Shown here: positions 2,214 to 33,980 of the stretch, piece by piece | Layout: every line of letters begins with the position of its first letter | Numbering within the stretch: position 1 is the first letter of the stretch | NCBI GenBank assembly: GCA_003599755.1 | Contig: QZJO01000007.1 | Span: forward strand, 1-41,220 | Length of the DNA: 41,220 bases | Direction of reading: 5' to 3' | Origin: Candidatus Parcubacteria bacterium | GTDB lineage: Bacteria; Patescibacteriota; Minisyncoccia; Sungbacterales; SURF-37 | Program-made: the position numbers and the translations under genes | Notes under the pieces: model-generated | The model's database searches: none | Told to the model about the DNA's origin: nothing | Seen by the model: only the letters and a program-made list of their open reading frames with translations

Positions 2214-2666
2214 TCAGTTCCGATTCGGGTCGATGGGTTCGAGCGTGACCGGGTGGAGATGCTTTTTCTCCAAGAGGTCGTAAATGCCAATGAGTGAACC
2301 TGACGCAAACCACTCGCGTCGCCATTCGGGAGGCATCAAGTGATATCCACAACGCTCTGATGCTCCATCGCGGTAGGATTCCCGATATCGGGCATGGTCG
2401 GGACAATTCCCGATTGTCCCATCGGGTAACGTAATCCCCTCACATGGTCGAGGACAGTTCGGTGATGGACCGACTACTCGCCCAATGACATTGCCGCCCT
2501 CGTCGAATACTTCGAGCCGGATAGCGGCCCGCTCAACGAGAAACATGTTATCAGCGATCGCCTGCGCCTGTTCGAGTGCCACTCCTGATGCGTCGGCCTC
2601 TATCGTTGCTTCCTGCGGGATGGGCATCCCGCCCCGCAATGCCACACCACGCAGAGTGTATTTCAC
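2214..2666 (-). CDS. orphan 150-aa Cys-containing protein (SD-class)
   Basis: I do not recognise this protein. The ORF track extends it to 2864, but that N-terminus is tRNA-Ala read backwards. The GTG at 2666 is preceded by GAAAGGAAA and follows a promoter (TTGCGG, 17 nt, TATAGT with the -10 at 2707-2712). The N-terminal half (about residues 1-65) is beta-rich by eye (YTLRGVALRG, AIRLEVFDEGGNVIGRVV). The C-terminal half has NCPRPCEG, NCPDH and RCGYH, a possible metal-binding Cys/His cluster, and then an aromatic segment (PEWRREWF). It has an SD, unlike the housekeeping genes nearby. It could be a small regulator or nucleic-acid-binding protein, but nothing decides this. Confidence 0.6.
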   Translation of the reverse strand: MKYTLRGVALRGGMPIPQEATIEADASGVALEQAQAIADNMFLVERAAIRLEVFDEGGNVIGRVVGPSPNCPRPCEGITLPDGTIGNCPDHARYRESYRDGASERCGYHLMPPEWRREWFASGSLIGIYDLLEKKHLHPVTLEPIDPNRN

Positions 2667-3034: not shown

Positions 3035-3154
3035 CTACCACACTCATCGAGGTATGGCAGTATTGGTTTCTCTTATCGGGTTTAAATCTCTCCGTGAATG
3101 ATCGATCTTTATCTCAAAAAGCTTGGCGATGATATACCTCGATGAGTGTGGTAG
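3035..3154. repeat. 120-bp palindromic element with perfect 21-bp arms
   Basis: CTACCACACTCATCGAGGTAT at 3035-3055 is the exact reverse complement of 3134-3154. The 78-nt centre is A+T-richer than the surroundings. I see no ORF and no transposase. Confidence 0.85.
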
Positions 3155-27973: not shown

Positions 27974-30745
27974 TTATGTTCGCACGCGTTCGGGAACCGG
28001 CCAAGATTCAACGAGCAACAGCGGCGCCTCGGCGCTCGTGCTCATGCGCCGGAGGGATGCCGGCAAATCCTGCCAAAGCGCTTCGGTAATGAACGGCATA
28101 AACGGATGGAGGAGTTTTAGGAGCGTACCGTAGATGCCAAAAAGCGTCGCCTGCGCGGCAGCGCGGTCGGCTGCGGGTCCGGCCGGATCCAAGCGCGGCT
28201 TTGCGGCCTCGATCAATTGGTCGGCGAACGTGTGCCACGCGTAGTGGTACAGCGCCTCGGCCGCGTGATGGAACCGGAATTTTTCCAGATCGGCCGTGAT
28301 GCGCTTGGCCAATGCGGCTGCTTCCTTCTGGCGGCGGCGGTCTTCGGCGGAAAGCTTCGGCCGGACGTCGGCCAGCGCAGGATCATAGCGCATCATGAGA
28401 AACCGATGGATGTTCCAGAGCTTGTTCGCGAAGTTACGGTAACCGCGGATCTTTTCTTCCGAAATAATGATGTCGTTGCCCGGTAGGTTGCCTACGACGA
28501 GCGCCATGCGCACCGCGTCGGTGCCGTATTCGGCGGCCACGCCGAGGGGATCGATGACGTTTCCTTTCGACTTGGACATTTTCTGCCGGTCTTTGTCGCG
28601 TACGAGGCCATGCAAATATACCGTGCGAAACGGCGGCTGCCCGGTACGGTACAAGCCGAGCATAATCATGCGCGACACCCAGAAAAATAGGATATCGTAG
28701 CCAGTTTCCATCACGTCGGTCGGATAGAACGTCTCGAAATCCTTTGTCGTCCACGGCGATTTCGGATTTCGAGTTTCGGATTTCGAGTTTCCGCGCTGCG
28801 CCAGCAGTGTGGCGAACGGCCACTGGCCGGATGAAAACCACGTGTCGAGCACGTCCGGATCCTGCTCCACCATATCCACGCCGCAGCGCGGGCAAGGATG
28901 CGTGACCGAGAAATGCAAAATGCTCGCGTTGTGGACCGGCGTGGCCCGCAGCTCGTTCCAAGAAATATTCTTGAGCCGCGCCAACAGCGCGCGGATCGCG
29001 CCGCCGTGCGAAACGATCACGATATTTCGATGCATATGGTGGTTACGATGCCGCTCGAATGCCTGCGCCACACGCTCTTCGAATTCATTCAATGCTTCAC
29101 CGCCGGGAATTTCATGCGGATCACGCTCGGGCATAAGGCGCGCGCGAATATCGTCGTAGTTTGCGCCCTCGAAATCACCCCAATTGCGCTCGCGAAACGC
29201 CGTATCGCTGATTACTTCGACGCCGCCGAGTTCACGGGCGATAATCTCGCCGGTCTCGCGCGCCCGTTGGAGATCCGAAGTGATAACGGCATCGATGGTG
29301 GCGCCGGATTCTTTCAGCGCTATTGCTGCCTGGCGCGCCTGCTCGCGACCGCGATCGTTAAGCGGCACGTCGCTATGGCCCTGTACCCGGCGCTCTGCAT
29401 TCCAATCGGTCTCGCCATGACGGACGAAATACCAATTGCCCCGTATCGGGGCATCCATGCGCACCTCACCGCAGCCGATGCAAAACCACGCCGGGATCCG
29501 GATGCCCCAGGTAATTTGGCGCGAGATATTCCAATCGCGGATATTCTTGAGCCAATGCAAATAGACCTTCTTGTAGCGGTCAGGGATAATCTGGACCTCT
29601 TTTGCGCGCACCGCGGCAATGGCTTTTTCGGCAAGCGGAGCCATGCGCACGAACCATTGCGGCATGACGAGCGGCTCCACCACATTGCCGCATTTGTAGC
29701 AGACCGCGACATTATGTTTGTACTCGGGCTCGATCTTTGCCAAAAGCCCGCGCGCTTGGAGATCGGCGACCACGCGCTCGCGCGCCTCGGCGACTTTCAA
29801 GCCCGCGTACGGGCCGGCTCGTTCGTTGAGCCGGCCGTCCTTGCCGATGACCGGCCGTACTTCCAAGTTATGGCGCTTGCCGATCTCGAAGTCGTCCGGA
29901 TCGTGCGCCGGCGTTACTTTGACTACGCCCGTGCCGAATTTCGGATCCACGGCTTCGTCAGCAATCACTTTGATTTTTGCCGGGCCGATGAGCGTCTCGA
30001 TTTCAAGCTCTTTGCCAACGTACTTCGCGTAGCGCTTGTCCTTGGGATGCACGGCCACCGCGGTGTCGCCGAATTTCGTCTCCGGCCGCACCGTCGCCAG
30101 GACGAGCGGACCGTACCGCATGTGATACAGCGGATCCGCACGCTCTTCGTATTTGATCTCAAGGTCCGAGAGCGTGGTCTGGTGCTTCACGCACCAATTG
30201 ACGATCCGCTCGCCGCGATAGAGCAAATCGTCTTTATAAAGCTTCTTGAACGTATCGGTCACGACCGCGACGATATCGGGATCGAGCGTAAATTTCTCGC
30301 GCGACCAATCGGCCGACGCCCCGAGCTTGCGCAGCTGATTCTCCATCACTACCTTATTCTCCTGCGTAAATTCCCACATCTCTTGCCAGAGCTGGTTGCG
30401 GGGAATCTGGAACCGATTACGTCCTTCCTTTTCGAGTTTTTTATCGAACACGACCTGCGTCTCAAAGCCCGCATGGTCCGCACCCGGCAGCCACAAGGCC
30501 TTGCGGCCGCGCATGCGCCAGAACCGGATCAAGATATCCTGCAACGTCACGAATACCGCATGCCCGATATGCAGCGCGCCGTTGGCATTGGGCGGCGGCA
30601 TAATAATGGAAAAGGGGTTGCCTCGCTCGCCGGGCAAAGTGTCCGGATTGAAAAAACCGGAATCTTCCCACTTCCGGTAGATCGCGTCTTCGATGTGTTT
30701 CGGGTCGTAGGCCTTCGCCAATTCAACCCGCGGATCGGTTGCCAT
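27974..30745 (-). CDS. valS: valyl-tRNA synthetase with inserted histidine-phosphatase domain
   Basis: A 923-aa class I synthetase charging tRNA-Val. LHIGH is at 58-62, the CP1 editing domain at about 180-340, and KMSKS at 722-726. A complete phosphoglycerate-mutase-type histidine phosphatase domain (about 436-615) is embedded between the two zinc-knuckle pairs CIGC (422-425) and CPRC (618-621). It has RHGE (442-445), LNDRG, SDLQRARET, FRERNWGDFEG and VSHGG (His580), so all catalytic residues are kept. The usual C-terminal coiled-coil arm is absent. A repeat-derived stretch (SKSETRNPKS) follows at 654-663. AAGGA precedes the ATG, with TATAAA as -10. Confidence 0.95.
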   Translation of the reverse strand: MATDPRVELAKAYDPKHIEDAIYRKWEDSGFFNPDTLPGERGNPFSIIMPPPNANGALHIGHAVFVTLQDILIRFWRMRGRKALWLPGADHAGFETQVVFDKKLEKEGRNRFQIPRNQLWQEMWEFTQENKVVMENQLRKLGASADWSREKFTLDPDIVAVVTDTFKKLYKDDLLYRGERIVNWCVKHQTTLSDLEIKYEERADPLYHMRYGPLVLATVRPETKFGDTAVAVHPKDKRYAKYVGKELEIETLIGPAKIKVIADEAVDPKFGTGVVKVTPAHDPDDFEIGKRHNLEVRPVIGKDGRLNERAGPYAGLKVAEARERVVADLQARGLLAKIEPEYKHNVAVCYKCGNVVEPLVMPQWFVRMAPLAEKAIAAVRAKEVQIIPDRYKKVYLHWLKNIRDWNISRQITWGIRIPAWFCIGCGEVRMDAPIRGNWYFVRHGETDWNAERRVQGHSDVPLNDRGREQARQAAIALKESGATIDAVITSDLQRARETGEIIARELGGVEVISDTAFRERNWGDFEGANYDDIRARLMPERDPHEIPGGEALNEFEERVAQAFERHRNHHMHRNIVIVSHGGAIRALLARLKNISWNELRATPVHNASILHFSVTHPCPRCGVDMVEQDPDVLDTWFSSGQWPFATLLAQRGNSKSETRNPKSPWTTKDFETFYPTDVMETGYDILFFWVSRMIMLGLYRTGQPPFRTVYLHGLVRDKDRQKMSKSKGNVIDPLGVAAEYGTDAVRMALVVGNLPGNDIIISEEKIRGYRNFANKLWNIHRFLMMRYDPALADVRPKLSAEDRRRQKEAAALAKRITADLEKFRFHHAAEALYHYAWHTFADQLIEAAKPRLDPAGPAADRAAAQATLFGIYGTLLKLLHPFMPFITEALWQDLPASLRRMSTSAEAPLLLVESWPVPERVRT
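28761..28790. repeat. in-frame 14-bp tandem repeat inside valS
   Basis: ttcggatttcgagt occurs twice in direct succession (28761-28774 and 28775-28788) and partly beyond. It encodes the low-complexity stretch around residues 652-663. Confidence 0.8.
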
Positions 30746-30767
30746 GGCAGTAGTTCCTTTTTATACT
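30739..30767 (+). promoter_or_regulatory. promoter of the 66-aa gene, overlapping the valS promoter
   Basis: Plus: TTGCCA (30739-30744), 17 nt, TATACT (30762-30767). Minus: TATAAA at 30760-30765 for valS. The two -10 boxes overlap, and the plus -35 covers the valS start codon. Confidence 0.65.
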
Positions 30768-30818: not shown

Positions 30819-31274
30819 TCAGGAGGGGTCATGCCGCTGAGCGAACTGCGAGATCGGAAGGGCCGCACATACTATCCGAAGCTCGGAGATCCGCACGCCG
30901 TCCAACCGCTGTTCGGTCCGTGCAGTCCGGACTGCCCGCTCCGCGATCGGGAAGAGTACCGATCCGATCGGTGTCACCGGGACCTGTGCGGTTATCGCAT
31001 GCGGCACGCAGTGCTCCCGGCAGCCGGCTAAGGGCTGCCCGCGCGCGAACCGCCGCCGAAGCAGGCCAGCACGCCTGCGCAGTTCACCCCATTCGTCCGG
31101 ATGGGGGTTCCGTTTTCCCCAACCGCATTGACAGCATCCGCCGAATCCCGCTACGGTAAATGCGGTGCCGCTGTGCGCCGCTGCAAGTATGTCGAACTGT
31201 GCCGCAATTTCCGCCATCTGGACCGCCTCGACGGCCGGGATTTTTCTCATGCAAGTCGTCGTCGTTGCGGTCAT
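30819..31274 (-). CDS. alternative antisense ORF, 151 aa (conflicts with the 66-aa gene)
   Basis: The minus-strand ATG at 31274 has GGAGG 9 nt upstream. The first 90 residues look protein-like (AVEAVQMAEIAAQFDILAAA, then GCCQCGWGKRNPHPDEWGEL). However, the frame runs antisense through the whole 66-aa gene at 30831, which has its own promoter and SD. Either only one strand is coding, or the minus gene once ended earlier. No clear promoter was found for it. Confidence 0.3.
   Translation of the reverse strand: MTATTTTCMRKIPAVEAVQMAEIAAQFDILAAAHSGTAFTVAGFGGCCQCGWGKRNPHPDEWGELRRRAGLLRRRFARGQPLAGCREHCVPHAITAQVPVTPIGSVLFPIAERAVRTARTEQRLDGVRISELRIVCAALPISQFAQRHDPS
30831..31031 (+). CDS. orphan 66-aa Cys-rich protein (SD-class)
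   Basis: The ATG is preceded by AGGAGGGG and by a good promoter at 30739-30767. The protein is charged: MPLSELRDRKGRTYYPKL, then FGPCSPDCPLRDREEYRSDRCHRDLCG. Four Cys spaced CxxxC...CxxxxC with a neighbouring His suggest a small metal-binding knuckle (inference). No family recognised. The stop lies inside a GGCAGCC/GGCTGCC hairpin. A minus-strand ORF overlaps it completely. Confidence 0.6.
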   Translation: MPLSELRDRKGRTYYPKLGDPHAVQPLFGPCSPDCPLRDREEYRSDRCHRDLCGYRMRHAVLPAAG

Positions 31275-31524
31275 CGTACACATCCTCCGCAAGAAAGGCG
31301 GCGAGGGAATGCAGCTGGTAGCAGCCGAATAAACGGCAGCAACAACGAACTCCAGACGCAGTCCCTCGCCTCCGGCGCAGGGACTGCTTTCGTAGATGGG
31401 CTCATGCCATGGCAACGCGGTTACCACGCCGCAGCCGGAGGGCGCTTCCACAAGAAGAAGGGTGCAAGACCCGACGAGCCCAACCATTCAACCGCGGCTC
31501 TTTCATAATCAGGGGGGTACAGTA
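31032..31524 (+). other. 490-bp stretch upstream of the four-gene SD operon
   Basis: On the plus strand no gene is supported. A 9-bp hairpin (GCAGTCCCT/AGGGACTGC, about 31361-31390, followed by TTTCG) resembles a terminator. CATAAT at about 31505 may be a -10 for the operon. The 5' half of the antisense ORF 30819-31274 lies here. Confidence 0.45.
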
Positions 31525-31794
31525 ATGGCCTACGCCGTGGTCGTGCCGCGACGGACCGGCCGCTTCTTCCTCGCTGAGCCCATCCAGGACAACGCGGCCG
31601 ATGCCGCCCACCTCGCGTACAGACGCGGACCTGATGCGCGCATCATCTGGGTCACGAAGGCGAACCTGGCAACGTCCTATTCCGAAGAGGAGGTGCTGCG
31701 CTACGATCGGACCGACGAAGCCCGTGTTGCACTCCGTCATCGTGAACTGATGCAGAGTGAACTGGCCGGCTGGGAACATGCCGGCGCCGACTGA
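31525..31794 (+). CDS. orphan 89-aa protein (SD-class), first gene of the operon
   Basis: The ATG at 31525 follows AGGGGGG at 8 nt. The N-terminal half looks like a beta-alpha unit (MAYAVVVPRRTGRFFLAEPIQDNAADAAHLAYRRGPDARIIWVT). The C-terminal half is helical and charged (EEEVLRYDRTDEARVALRHRELMQSEL). No Cys or TM. No family recognised. Its lone Lys is AAG. The next gene follows after 12 nt. Confidence 0.7.
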   Translation: MAYAVVVPRRTGRFFLAEPIQDNAADAAHLAYRRGPDARIIWVTKANLATSYSEEEVLRYDRTDEARVALRHRELMQSELAGWEHAGAD

Positions 31795-31806
31795 CAAGGA
31801 GAGTCC

Positions 31807-32064
31807 ATGCACGAACTCCGCCCGGTGAAATCCGACCCGGATCCGCTCGATCAGGTACGCAGGCGCATCGAAGAAGTCGCCGCGCTCGAACGGAAGTTGC
31901 AGCGCGGCATCGCCACGGACGGTCCGTGCGATCGGCCGCCGGCGAGCAAGCAGGAAAAGCGCCGCTGGCATCTCGATCATCTGAAGCGGGTCGTCATCCC
32001 GCGAGCAACCGCCCGCGCGGAAGACGCCTGCGATCCGCGCGTCCGCGAAGCGTTCGAACTCTAG
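31807..32064 (+). CDS. orphan 85-aa helical protein (SD-class)
   Basis: AAGGAGAG precedes the ATG. It is highly charged and mostly helical: DQVRRRIEEVAALERKLQRG could form a short coiled coil, followed by KQEKRRWHLDHLKRVVIP. Two Cys (GPCDRPP, EDACDPR). No family recognised. It ends 9 nt before the next start. Four of five lysines are AAG. Confidence 0.7.
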   Translation: MHELRPVKSDPDPLDQVRRRIEEVAALERKLQRGIATDGPCDRPPASKQEKRRWHLDHLKRVVIPRATARAEDACDPRVREAFEL

Positions 32065-32073
32065 GAGGCAGAG

Positions 32074-32580
32074 ATGGCGACGGCGTTCTACGTCCCGCGT
32101 CCCCACGGCATGCTCGAGCGCACGCATCTGTTCATCGATACCGCCACGGGCATCCGGAACCTTCCGACGCGGCCGCACCGCTCGATCTTCGTCTCCGGCA
32201 GCTTCAACGCACTGGCGACCAACATCAATGCTGCGACGGTCTCGGCGCGCACCATCAAGGCGGGAGCGCCCACCGTACTCTTCTTCGCCGCTTTCACCCG
32301 GCACGACTGCGCCGATTACCGGCATCGGACGTGCCGCCGGCAGGGTCTCTGGGAGCGTCCCTTCACGCCGCTGACGCGACCCGAACCGCTGCTCAGTCAC
32401 CTCGAACGCCATCCGAAGTTCCGCCCCATCTCCGTGGACCGCAAGCGCATCGCCTGCGGTACTTGGCAGCTCATCGGATACCCGCGCCTCAATGGCGCGC
32501 TCCTCGATTCGCTCATCGAGTTGGGCCACTTCCACGTCTTGAACGGCGAGTTCTCGAGCCATTCGGCCGCGCCGGCCTAG
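32074..32580 (+). CDS. orphan 168-aa protein (SD-class)
   Basis: The ATG follows TAGGAGGCAG. This is the largest protein of the operon. The N-terminal part is a possible beta/alpha fold (FYVPRPHGMLERTHLFIDTATGIRN, SIFVSGSFNALATNINAATVSARTIKAG). Then comes a Cys/His-containing segment (TRHDCADYRHRTCRRQ), and the C-terminus is IACGTWQLIGYPRLNGALLDSLIELGHFHVLNGEF. No catalytic motif or family recognised. All three lysines are AAG. The HDC...HRTC grouping could bind metal (inference). Confidence 0.72.
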   Translation: MATAFYVPRPHGMLERTHLFIDTATGIRNLPTRPHRSIFVSGSFNALATNINAATVSARTIKAGAPTVLFFAAFTRHDCADYRHRTCRRQGLWERPFTPLTRPEPLLSHLERHPKFRPISVDRKRIACGTWQLIGYPRLNGALLDSLIELGHFHVLNGEFSSHSAAPA

Positions 32581-32603
32581 GCATCGAGCGCCAGGAGGGA
32601 TGT

Positions 32604-32795
32604 ATGCGGCTTCGGGATCACGAAGACCTCGAACGGCGAGCCAGCGTGTCGCTGCTCATGATGTACAACAGCCAGCTCGCGAGCCCGCGGCTCCGAGCGG
32701 ACGAGCGCCGGCGCCTCGAATCCCGCCGCCAGAGGGTCATCGCGATCCTCGGCCGGCGGGGCGACCTCCCCCAGCACTTTCGTCCGGTCGGTTAG
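32604..32795 (+). CDS. orphan 63-aa basic protein (SD-class), last gene of the operon
   Basis: The ATG at 32604 has CCAGGAGGG upstream (spacing 4). The ORF track only shows this frame as the tail of a longer spurious ORF. It is Arg-rich and helical: MRLRDHEDLERRASVSLLMMYNS and ADERRRLESRRQRVIAILGRRG. It may bind nucleic acid by charge alone; no domain is recognised. A terminator lies 29 bp past the stop, inside tsaD. Confidence 0.65.
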   Translation: MRLRDHEDLERRASVSLLMMYNSQLASPRLRADERRRLESRRQRVIAILGRRGDLPQHFRPVG

Positions 32796-32801
32796 CGAGC
32801 G

Positions 32802-33980
32802 CTAGCCAAGCCGCAGATTCGCATCGGCCTGGACCGTGTTCCAGGCCGATTTCTTTTTCGTATTGAAAAACCCGGCCAGCGCGATCATGAGCGCGTTGTC
32901 GCCGGTCAACGGAACATGCGGCACCAGGAACGGCACGCGCGGCAGCTCGGCCGCGAGTTTCGCGCGCAGGGTTTCGCGCAGTTTCTTGTTTGCCGCAACG
33001 CCGCCGCCGATCATCACGGTTCGCGCGCGAAACTTCTTCGCCGCGCGCACGGTCTTGGCCACAAGCACGTCCACCGCGGCCTGCTCGAAACTTGCCGCGA
33101 TATCGCGCTTCTCTTTTGCGCCCAGTTTCTTCATGTCGCGGATCGTATAGAGCACCGCGGTCTTCAAGCCAGAAAAACTGAAATCGAAATGTTCATCGCG
33201 GATCATCGGCCGCGGAAACGCGTACACCCGCGTGTTACCGCGCTCCGCCAATCTAGAAATAATCGGCCCGCCGGGAAATCCAAGGTTCATCATTTTCGCG
33301 ACCTTGTCGAATGCTTCGCCCGCGGCATCGTCGCGCGTCTCGCCCACAATACGGTACGTTCCCGCGCGCGGCATAAGTGCGAGTTCCGTGTGTCCACCCG
33401 ATACGATGAGGCAGAGCGCCGGATATCGAAATCGAGGCAGAGGAAATGATGCTCCGCCATCCGCGTCTTTGGGAATAAGATTGGTATAGATGTGGCCCTC
33501 GAGATGATTGATCGGAATCAAAGGTTTCTTCCAAAGAAATGACAATGCGCGCGCGAAGTTCACGCCGACCCAGAGCGCGGGCGCCAATCCGGGCCCCGCA
33601 GTAACGGCAATCGCATCAATGTCGGGTGTGGCAAACGGAACAACGCGCTTTTGCATCGCGGCGAATAATTCCGGCTCACGTTCGAGAATAGAATCAAGAA
33701 TCTTGTATTGAGAATCGTGGGACATGCCCACCCGTTTCCGTGATTCATGCTTCATGATTCTTGATTCACGCAACGCCTGCAGCAGTACAGGCACGAGATT
33801 GCGCTGATGCTCGCGCTTCGCCAAGTTCGGCACCACGCCGCCGAATTTGGCATGGAGTTTCATCTGCGAGGAAACGACGTTTGAAAGTACGCGAATGCGA
33901 GGCGCCCTGGACGTTCCGGTCGCCTCTATAACGGCAATCGCCGTTTCATCACAGCTGGTCTCGATCCCGAGGATGCGCAT
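32802..33980 (-). CDS. tsaD: tRNA N6-adenosine threonylcarbamoyltransferase
   Basis: A 392-aa enzyme that finishes t6A37 synthesis on ANN-decoding tRNAs. The family start is MRILGIETSCDETA, with metal ligands in INHLEGHIYTN, then SGGHTELALM, FDKVAKMMNLGFPGGP and GGGVAANKKLRE near the C-terminus. An in-frame insertion of about 30 residues (70-99, ESRIMKHESRK to KILDSILER) separates NLVPVLLQAL from the DIDAIAVTAGPGLA core; it is encoded by a palindromic repeat. A TACAGT box ends 9 nt before the ATG. No SD. Confidence 0.95.
   Translation of the reverse strand: MRILGIETSCDETAIAVIEATGTSRAPRIRVLSNVVSSQMKLHAKFGGVVPNLAKREHQRNLVPVLLQALRESRIMKHESRKRVGMSHDSQYKILDSILEREPELFAAMQKRVVPFATPDIDAIAVTAGPGLAPALWVGVNFARALSFLWKKPLIPINHLEGHIYTNLIPKDADGGASFPLPRFRYPALCLIVSGGHTELALMPRAGTYRIVGETRDDAAGEAFDKVAKMMNLGFPGGPIISRLAERGNTRVYAFPRPMIRDEHFDFSFSGLKTAVLYTIRDMKKLGAKEKRDIAASFEQAAVDVLVAKTVRAAKKFRARTVMIGGGVAANKKLRETLRAKLAAELPRVPFLVPHVPLTGDNALMIALAGFFNTKKKSAWNTVQADANLRLG
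32824..32859 (+). terminator. plus-strand terminator inside the 3' end of tsaD
   Basis: TCGGCCTGGA-ccgtgt-TCCAGGCCGA followed by TTTCTTTTTC. It serves the SD operon while coding for the tsaD C-terminal region on the other strand. Confidence 0.8.
33691..33767. repeat. palindromic element inserted in frame in tsaD
   Basis: GAATCAAGAAT (33691-33701) and ATTCTTGATTC (33757-33767) are exact inverted copies. Inside are further GATTCATG/CATGATTC units. The element is coding, with no stop in the tsaD frame. Confidence 0.8.

Follow-up and report, generated by a model that had tools for sequence, protein, structure and literature searches.

We analyzed a window of 41,220 bases, which forms the first part of contig C13 in a genome of 928,662 bp (13 contigs, listed as 100% complete). 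The size of this genome and the genes it carries point to Patescibacteria. Five small plus-strand open reading frames of 66, 89, 85, 168, and 63 aa, here called P1 to P5, lie in this window between valS and tsaD. A sequence-only reading of the same DNA had reported these five frames, the gaps of 12, 9, and 23 nt within P2 to P5, and the two flanking genes, and all were found as reported. The features of the locus are as follows.

27974-30745 (-): valS, flanking gene
30831-31031 (+): P1, 66 aa; AGGAGG 4 nt before the ATG; codon score uninformative (-0.009)
31350-31490 (+): candidate leader structure ahead of P2; strong fold predicted
31402-32562 (-): antisense ORF, 386 aa
31525-31794 (+): P2, 89 aa; acidic, pI 5.9; codon score 0.225
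31807-32064 (+): P3, 85 aa; charged, pI 9.2; AAGGAG as SD; codon score 0.190
32074-32580 (+): P4, 168 aa; pI 10.75, 3 Cys and 10 His; AGGAGG as SD; codon score 0.165
32604-32795 (+): P5, 63 aa; Arg-rich (15 Arg), pI 11.7; AGGAGG as SD; codon score 0.144
32802-33980 (-): tsaD, flanking gene, convergent with the cluster
32823-32850 (+): terminator-like hairpin of 11 bp, then TTTCTTTTT; inside the 3' part of tsaD

Coding evidence and gene organization

Codon usage was scored as log-odds per codon with a model whose training set was 449 long ORFs from the same genome (training mean, 0.165). P2 to P5 scored 0.14 to 0.23 per codon, around the training mean, indicating host-like usage. Against the wrong frames, these scores lay beyond the 99th percentile in four cases out of five; the exception is the in-phase antisense frame, where scores can be just as high. 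P1 had no codon signal. The sequence AGGAGG precedes P1, P4, and P5 at a spacing of 4 to 5 nt, and AAGGAG precedes P3. Textbook SD sites had been claimed for all five genes; P1, P3, P4, and P5 do have them (6 nt), but P2 carries GGGGGG instead, for which the duplex energy is good (-11.6 kcal/mol). An SD of at least 6 nt precedes ~1.4% of random ATGs and 31 of 415 (7.5%) called genes of at least 250 aa. We defined an SD chain as three strong-SD ORFs, each of at least 60 aa, separated by no more than 40 nt. Such chains occurred at only two places genome-wide, the second of which consists of three longer genes on contig C4; 300 Markov models of the island produced none.

P2 to P5 are thus co-directional and coding-like, with short gaps and ribosome sites, and P1 shares these properties in part. 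We concluded that P2 to P5 form a convincing operon. P1, separated from P2 by 493 nt, is therefore only a candidate member of that operon. A weak terminator-like hairpin (31087-31106; z, -1.05) lies between the two genes. The proposal that all five are real genes is well supported by codons, SD sites, and gaps for P2 to P5, which are very probably genuine; for P1, with an SD and no codon signal, support is moderate, and it is probably a genuine gene.

An alternative is that the plus-strand frames are shadows and that the true gene is the antisense 386-aa ORF, or that the region is noncoding high-GC DNA. Length and a positive codon score (0.085 per codon; total, 32.6) speak for the antisense ORF, and a greedy caller that ranks by total codon score picks it over P2 to P4, which, together with the lack of a codon signal in P1, counts against the plus-strand genes. 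However, the summed score of P2, P3, and P4 is 64.0, compared with 32.6 for the antisense ORF. The antisense ORF has no SD, whereas three of the four plus-strand genes P2 to P5 have 6-nt SDs, and it matches no Pfam family. It is also in phase with the frame common to P2 to P4, the arrangement from which shadows of real genes result; on the strand opposite real genes, the median score of the in-phase frame is close to 0.1. On this combined evidence the antisense ORF is best read as a shadow, and we consider the alternative unlikely.

The sequence-only reading had further described a good promoter upstream of the cluster and a dedicated terminator downstream. The promoter match (30739-30767) overlaps the start of valS and lies upstream of P1, not P2; promoter matches showed no excess over shuffles (3 found, 1.9 expected). 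The hairpin at 32823-32850 is strong (z, -3.3), but it sits within the convergent tsaD rather than being dedicated to the cluster. Promoter and terminator are therefore weaker evidence than had been stated.

The stretch at 31350-31490, picked after inspection, folds better than its own shuffles (z, -4.14) and contains a hairpin (31358-31387; z, -4.89) and a junction closed by UGGGCUC/GAGCCCA; the fold of the 501-nt gap as a whole is unremarkable (z, -1.52). No Rfam family was matched by this stretch. A tRNA-like reading of 31397-31487, in which UGGGCUC/GAGCCCA is followed by ACCA, was rejected: ARAGORN and Rfam were negative, and the T-arm did not fit. Between P1 and P2 there is also a 47-aa ORF (31189-31332, +) with coding-like codons (0.23), no SD, and one hydrophobic stretch, which appears membrane-like; its Pfam match to FixQ is below the cut-off (E, 0.014). 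Elsewhere in the window, between tRNA-Ala and tRNA-Arg (3035-3154, -), two 21-nt arms, CTACCACACTCATCGAGGTAT / ATACCTCGATGAGTGTGGTAG, form a perfect inverted repeat around a 78-nt spacer.

A variable slot between tsaD and valS

We fetched the tsaD regions of 17 relatives from the same order. In 15 of the 17, valS adjoins tsaD; in the remaining two, no valS match lay within the stretch fetched. Next come prsW (ten relatives) and hsp20 (nine); among the remaining fetched stretches, several end early. The interval between tsaD and valS ranges from ~60 bp (L082) to 3.3 kb (L093) and measures 2.06 kb in the genome studied here. Inspection by eye, which is the source of the gene names given here in place of a family search, found aldehyde dehydrogenase-like genes, in either orientation, in larger intervals (L080, L085, L089, and L092 to L095) and a nucleotidyltransferase-like gene in the intervals of L087 and L090. 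The flanks are thus conserved while the content differs among relatives. We concluded that the order tsaD to valS holds across the taxonomic order with a variable slot between the two genes, which is a new fact, and that the cluster is lineage-specific cargo and not a conserved core system. The sequence-only reading had noted that essential genes flank the cluster. Both neighbors are present, but they say little about the importance of the cluster, because in relatives the slot holds unrelated genes or almost nothing.

The valS gene of this genome itself encodes an in-frame histidine phosphatase domain inside the synthetase (Pfam His_Phos_1, residues 439-618; E, 8.9e-54). Judged by motif, the domain is also present in valS of L081 and L095 and is absent from that of nine other relatives with a readable frame. 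A literature search found no paper naming both the valS synthetase and histidine phosphatase.

Search for relatives

We searched for homologues of the five proteins; the collection scans (find_related_loci) use short exact peptide patterns, which distant relatives of such short proteins can escape. No homologue was found for P4 in order and class genomes, GTDB contigs, viral contigs, phages, and plasmids, or for P2 in family and class genomes and the same other collections. Likewise, none was found for P1 and P3 in class genomes, viral contigs, and phages, or for P5 in viral contigs or phages. Across 384 class genomes, P1 to P4 had zero homologues. The island DNA had no match in plasmids. No family in Pfam, PHROGs, NCBIfam, or PADLOC passed for any of the five proteins, and a PDB sequence search with P4 and P2 gave no significant match. 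Compared with each other, the five showed no clear similarity. Several candidate matches were rejected: those of class genomes to P1 were weak and, read in translation, look like chance; that of G001 to P4 is antisense to a histidine kinase; and those to P1 to P5 within the genome were weak. A better within-genome match concerns the overlapping 135-aa frame (E, 0.0044) but runs antisense to another gene. Hence, in the collections searched, the cluster has no homologue beyond a narrow lineage, and its description as undescribed holds.

Taken together, the operon layout, the SD chain, the host-like codons, the lack of relatives in the collections, and the variability of the slot support, by computation, the reading that P2 to P5, and probably P1, are genuine lineage-restricted genes, the cargo of a variable tsaD/valS slot in a Patescibacteria-like genome. 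We consider this reading likely.

Small, tightly packed genes with no assigned function in a variable slot would also fit a remnant of a phage or other mobile element, and the GC content of the cluster (0.649) is in the top 0.5% of 2-kb windows. We regard this origin as improbable. PHROGs, phage records, and viral contigs gave nothing beyond weak matches (P1 at E 0.4 and P3 at E 0.6 in phages), no hallmark gene or phage homologue was found in the cluster, and neither an integrase nor convincing flanking repeats were found there. Codon usage is host-like, and the dinucleotide signature, at the 92.5th percentile, is not extreme. Slightly less probable again is an unrecognized toxin-antitoxin or anti-phage defence system, to which the variable slot and the adjacency of small acidic and basic proteins might point, but for which the cluster has no defence family match in PADLOC, Pfam, or NCBIfam, and relatives hold aldehyde dehydrogenase-like genes, not defence genes, in the slot.

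Protein properties and significance

The genes encode proteins of contrasting charge: P3, P4, and P5 are basic (pI 9.2, 10.8, and 11.7), and P2 is acidic (5.9). P3 and P5 are probably helical. An AF2 model of P2 built without an alignment (pLDDT, 56.5) has, at low confidence, a strand-helix-strand and a long C-terminal helix, and Foldseek with this model returned nothing at E 0.001 or better; the corresponding model of P4 (pLDDT, 33.6) is unusable. P1 contains four Cys spaced C-x3-C-x12-C-x4-C and, from this spacing, could be a metal-binding protein.

A second ORFan of ~150 aa with four Cys lies at 2214-2666 (-); it matches no Pfam family, and neither the 384 class genomes nor the viral contigs yielded a relative. 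It has CP-x16-CGY in common with P1, and the two are the only ones with this pattern among the 8907 ORFs of the genome. Their alignment score was reached by 0 of 500 shuffles and by 0.05 to 0.25% of 2000, the pair having been picked by eye. A relationship between the two proteins is only suggested by these sequences.

The proposed multicomponent system is plausible given the operon layout: P2 to P5 would share one transcript, and their products would act together. Tentatively, and with more doubt than confidence, we suggest that they may form a small assembly in the cytosol, where the basic P3, P4, and P5, along with the acidic P2, would make contact with nucleic acid or RNA-protein surfaces; P1 would be a small metal-binding protein apart from it. 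The nucleic-acid part of this guess is weak because a high Arg content is partly expected at the 59% GC of the genome. A bolder version, which we think distinctly unlikely, is that P2 to P5 would be an undescribed multiprotein complex under the structured RNA leader at 31350-31490, in a tsaD/valS slot with cargo exchanged across the order.

Lineage-specific clusters of unknown function in Candidatus Patescibacteria number 54,343, with 45,788 at the species level (AGNOSTOS, PMC9132574). P2 to P5 resemble these entries as genes of unknown function limited to one lineage; unlike them, they stand together, four genes in a tight, SD-led operon, within a variable slot that has been mapped. FESNov comprises novel families from uncultivated taxa, including Patescibacteria (PMC10849945); those families are conserved, whereas no relative of P1 to P5 turned up in the collections searched. 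Further small SD-led gene runs exist in the same genome (e.g., C10:109462-111158, C1:66362-67366, and C7:25934-26515); like P1 to P5, they are short tandem genes, several with strong SDs. Nine proteins from four such places were compared with Pfam: six lacked a match at E 0.01 or better, and the matches of the other three all fell below the cut-off. These runs differ from P1 to P5 in that no sequence similarity was found within the genome and several are membrane or zinc-ribbon-like. At C3:11995-12320 (L013), also in this genome, two small membrane-like ORFs (49 and 48 aa) with strong SDs stand in tandem; they are nearly identical and have the sequence VxxHTGSDRDEQIPGSTWPERILAVITIISWVG in common.

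The cluster is a sound and credible finding of a common kind, one-lineage genes being abundant in Patescibacteria, and alone it is one further entry among very many lineage-specific unknown genes. It is a clean case of a coherent operon of uncharacterized proteins in a reduced genome, and the tsaD/valS interval is a variable slot open to a survey of cargo across this order.
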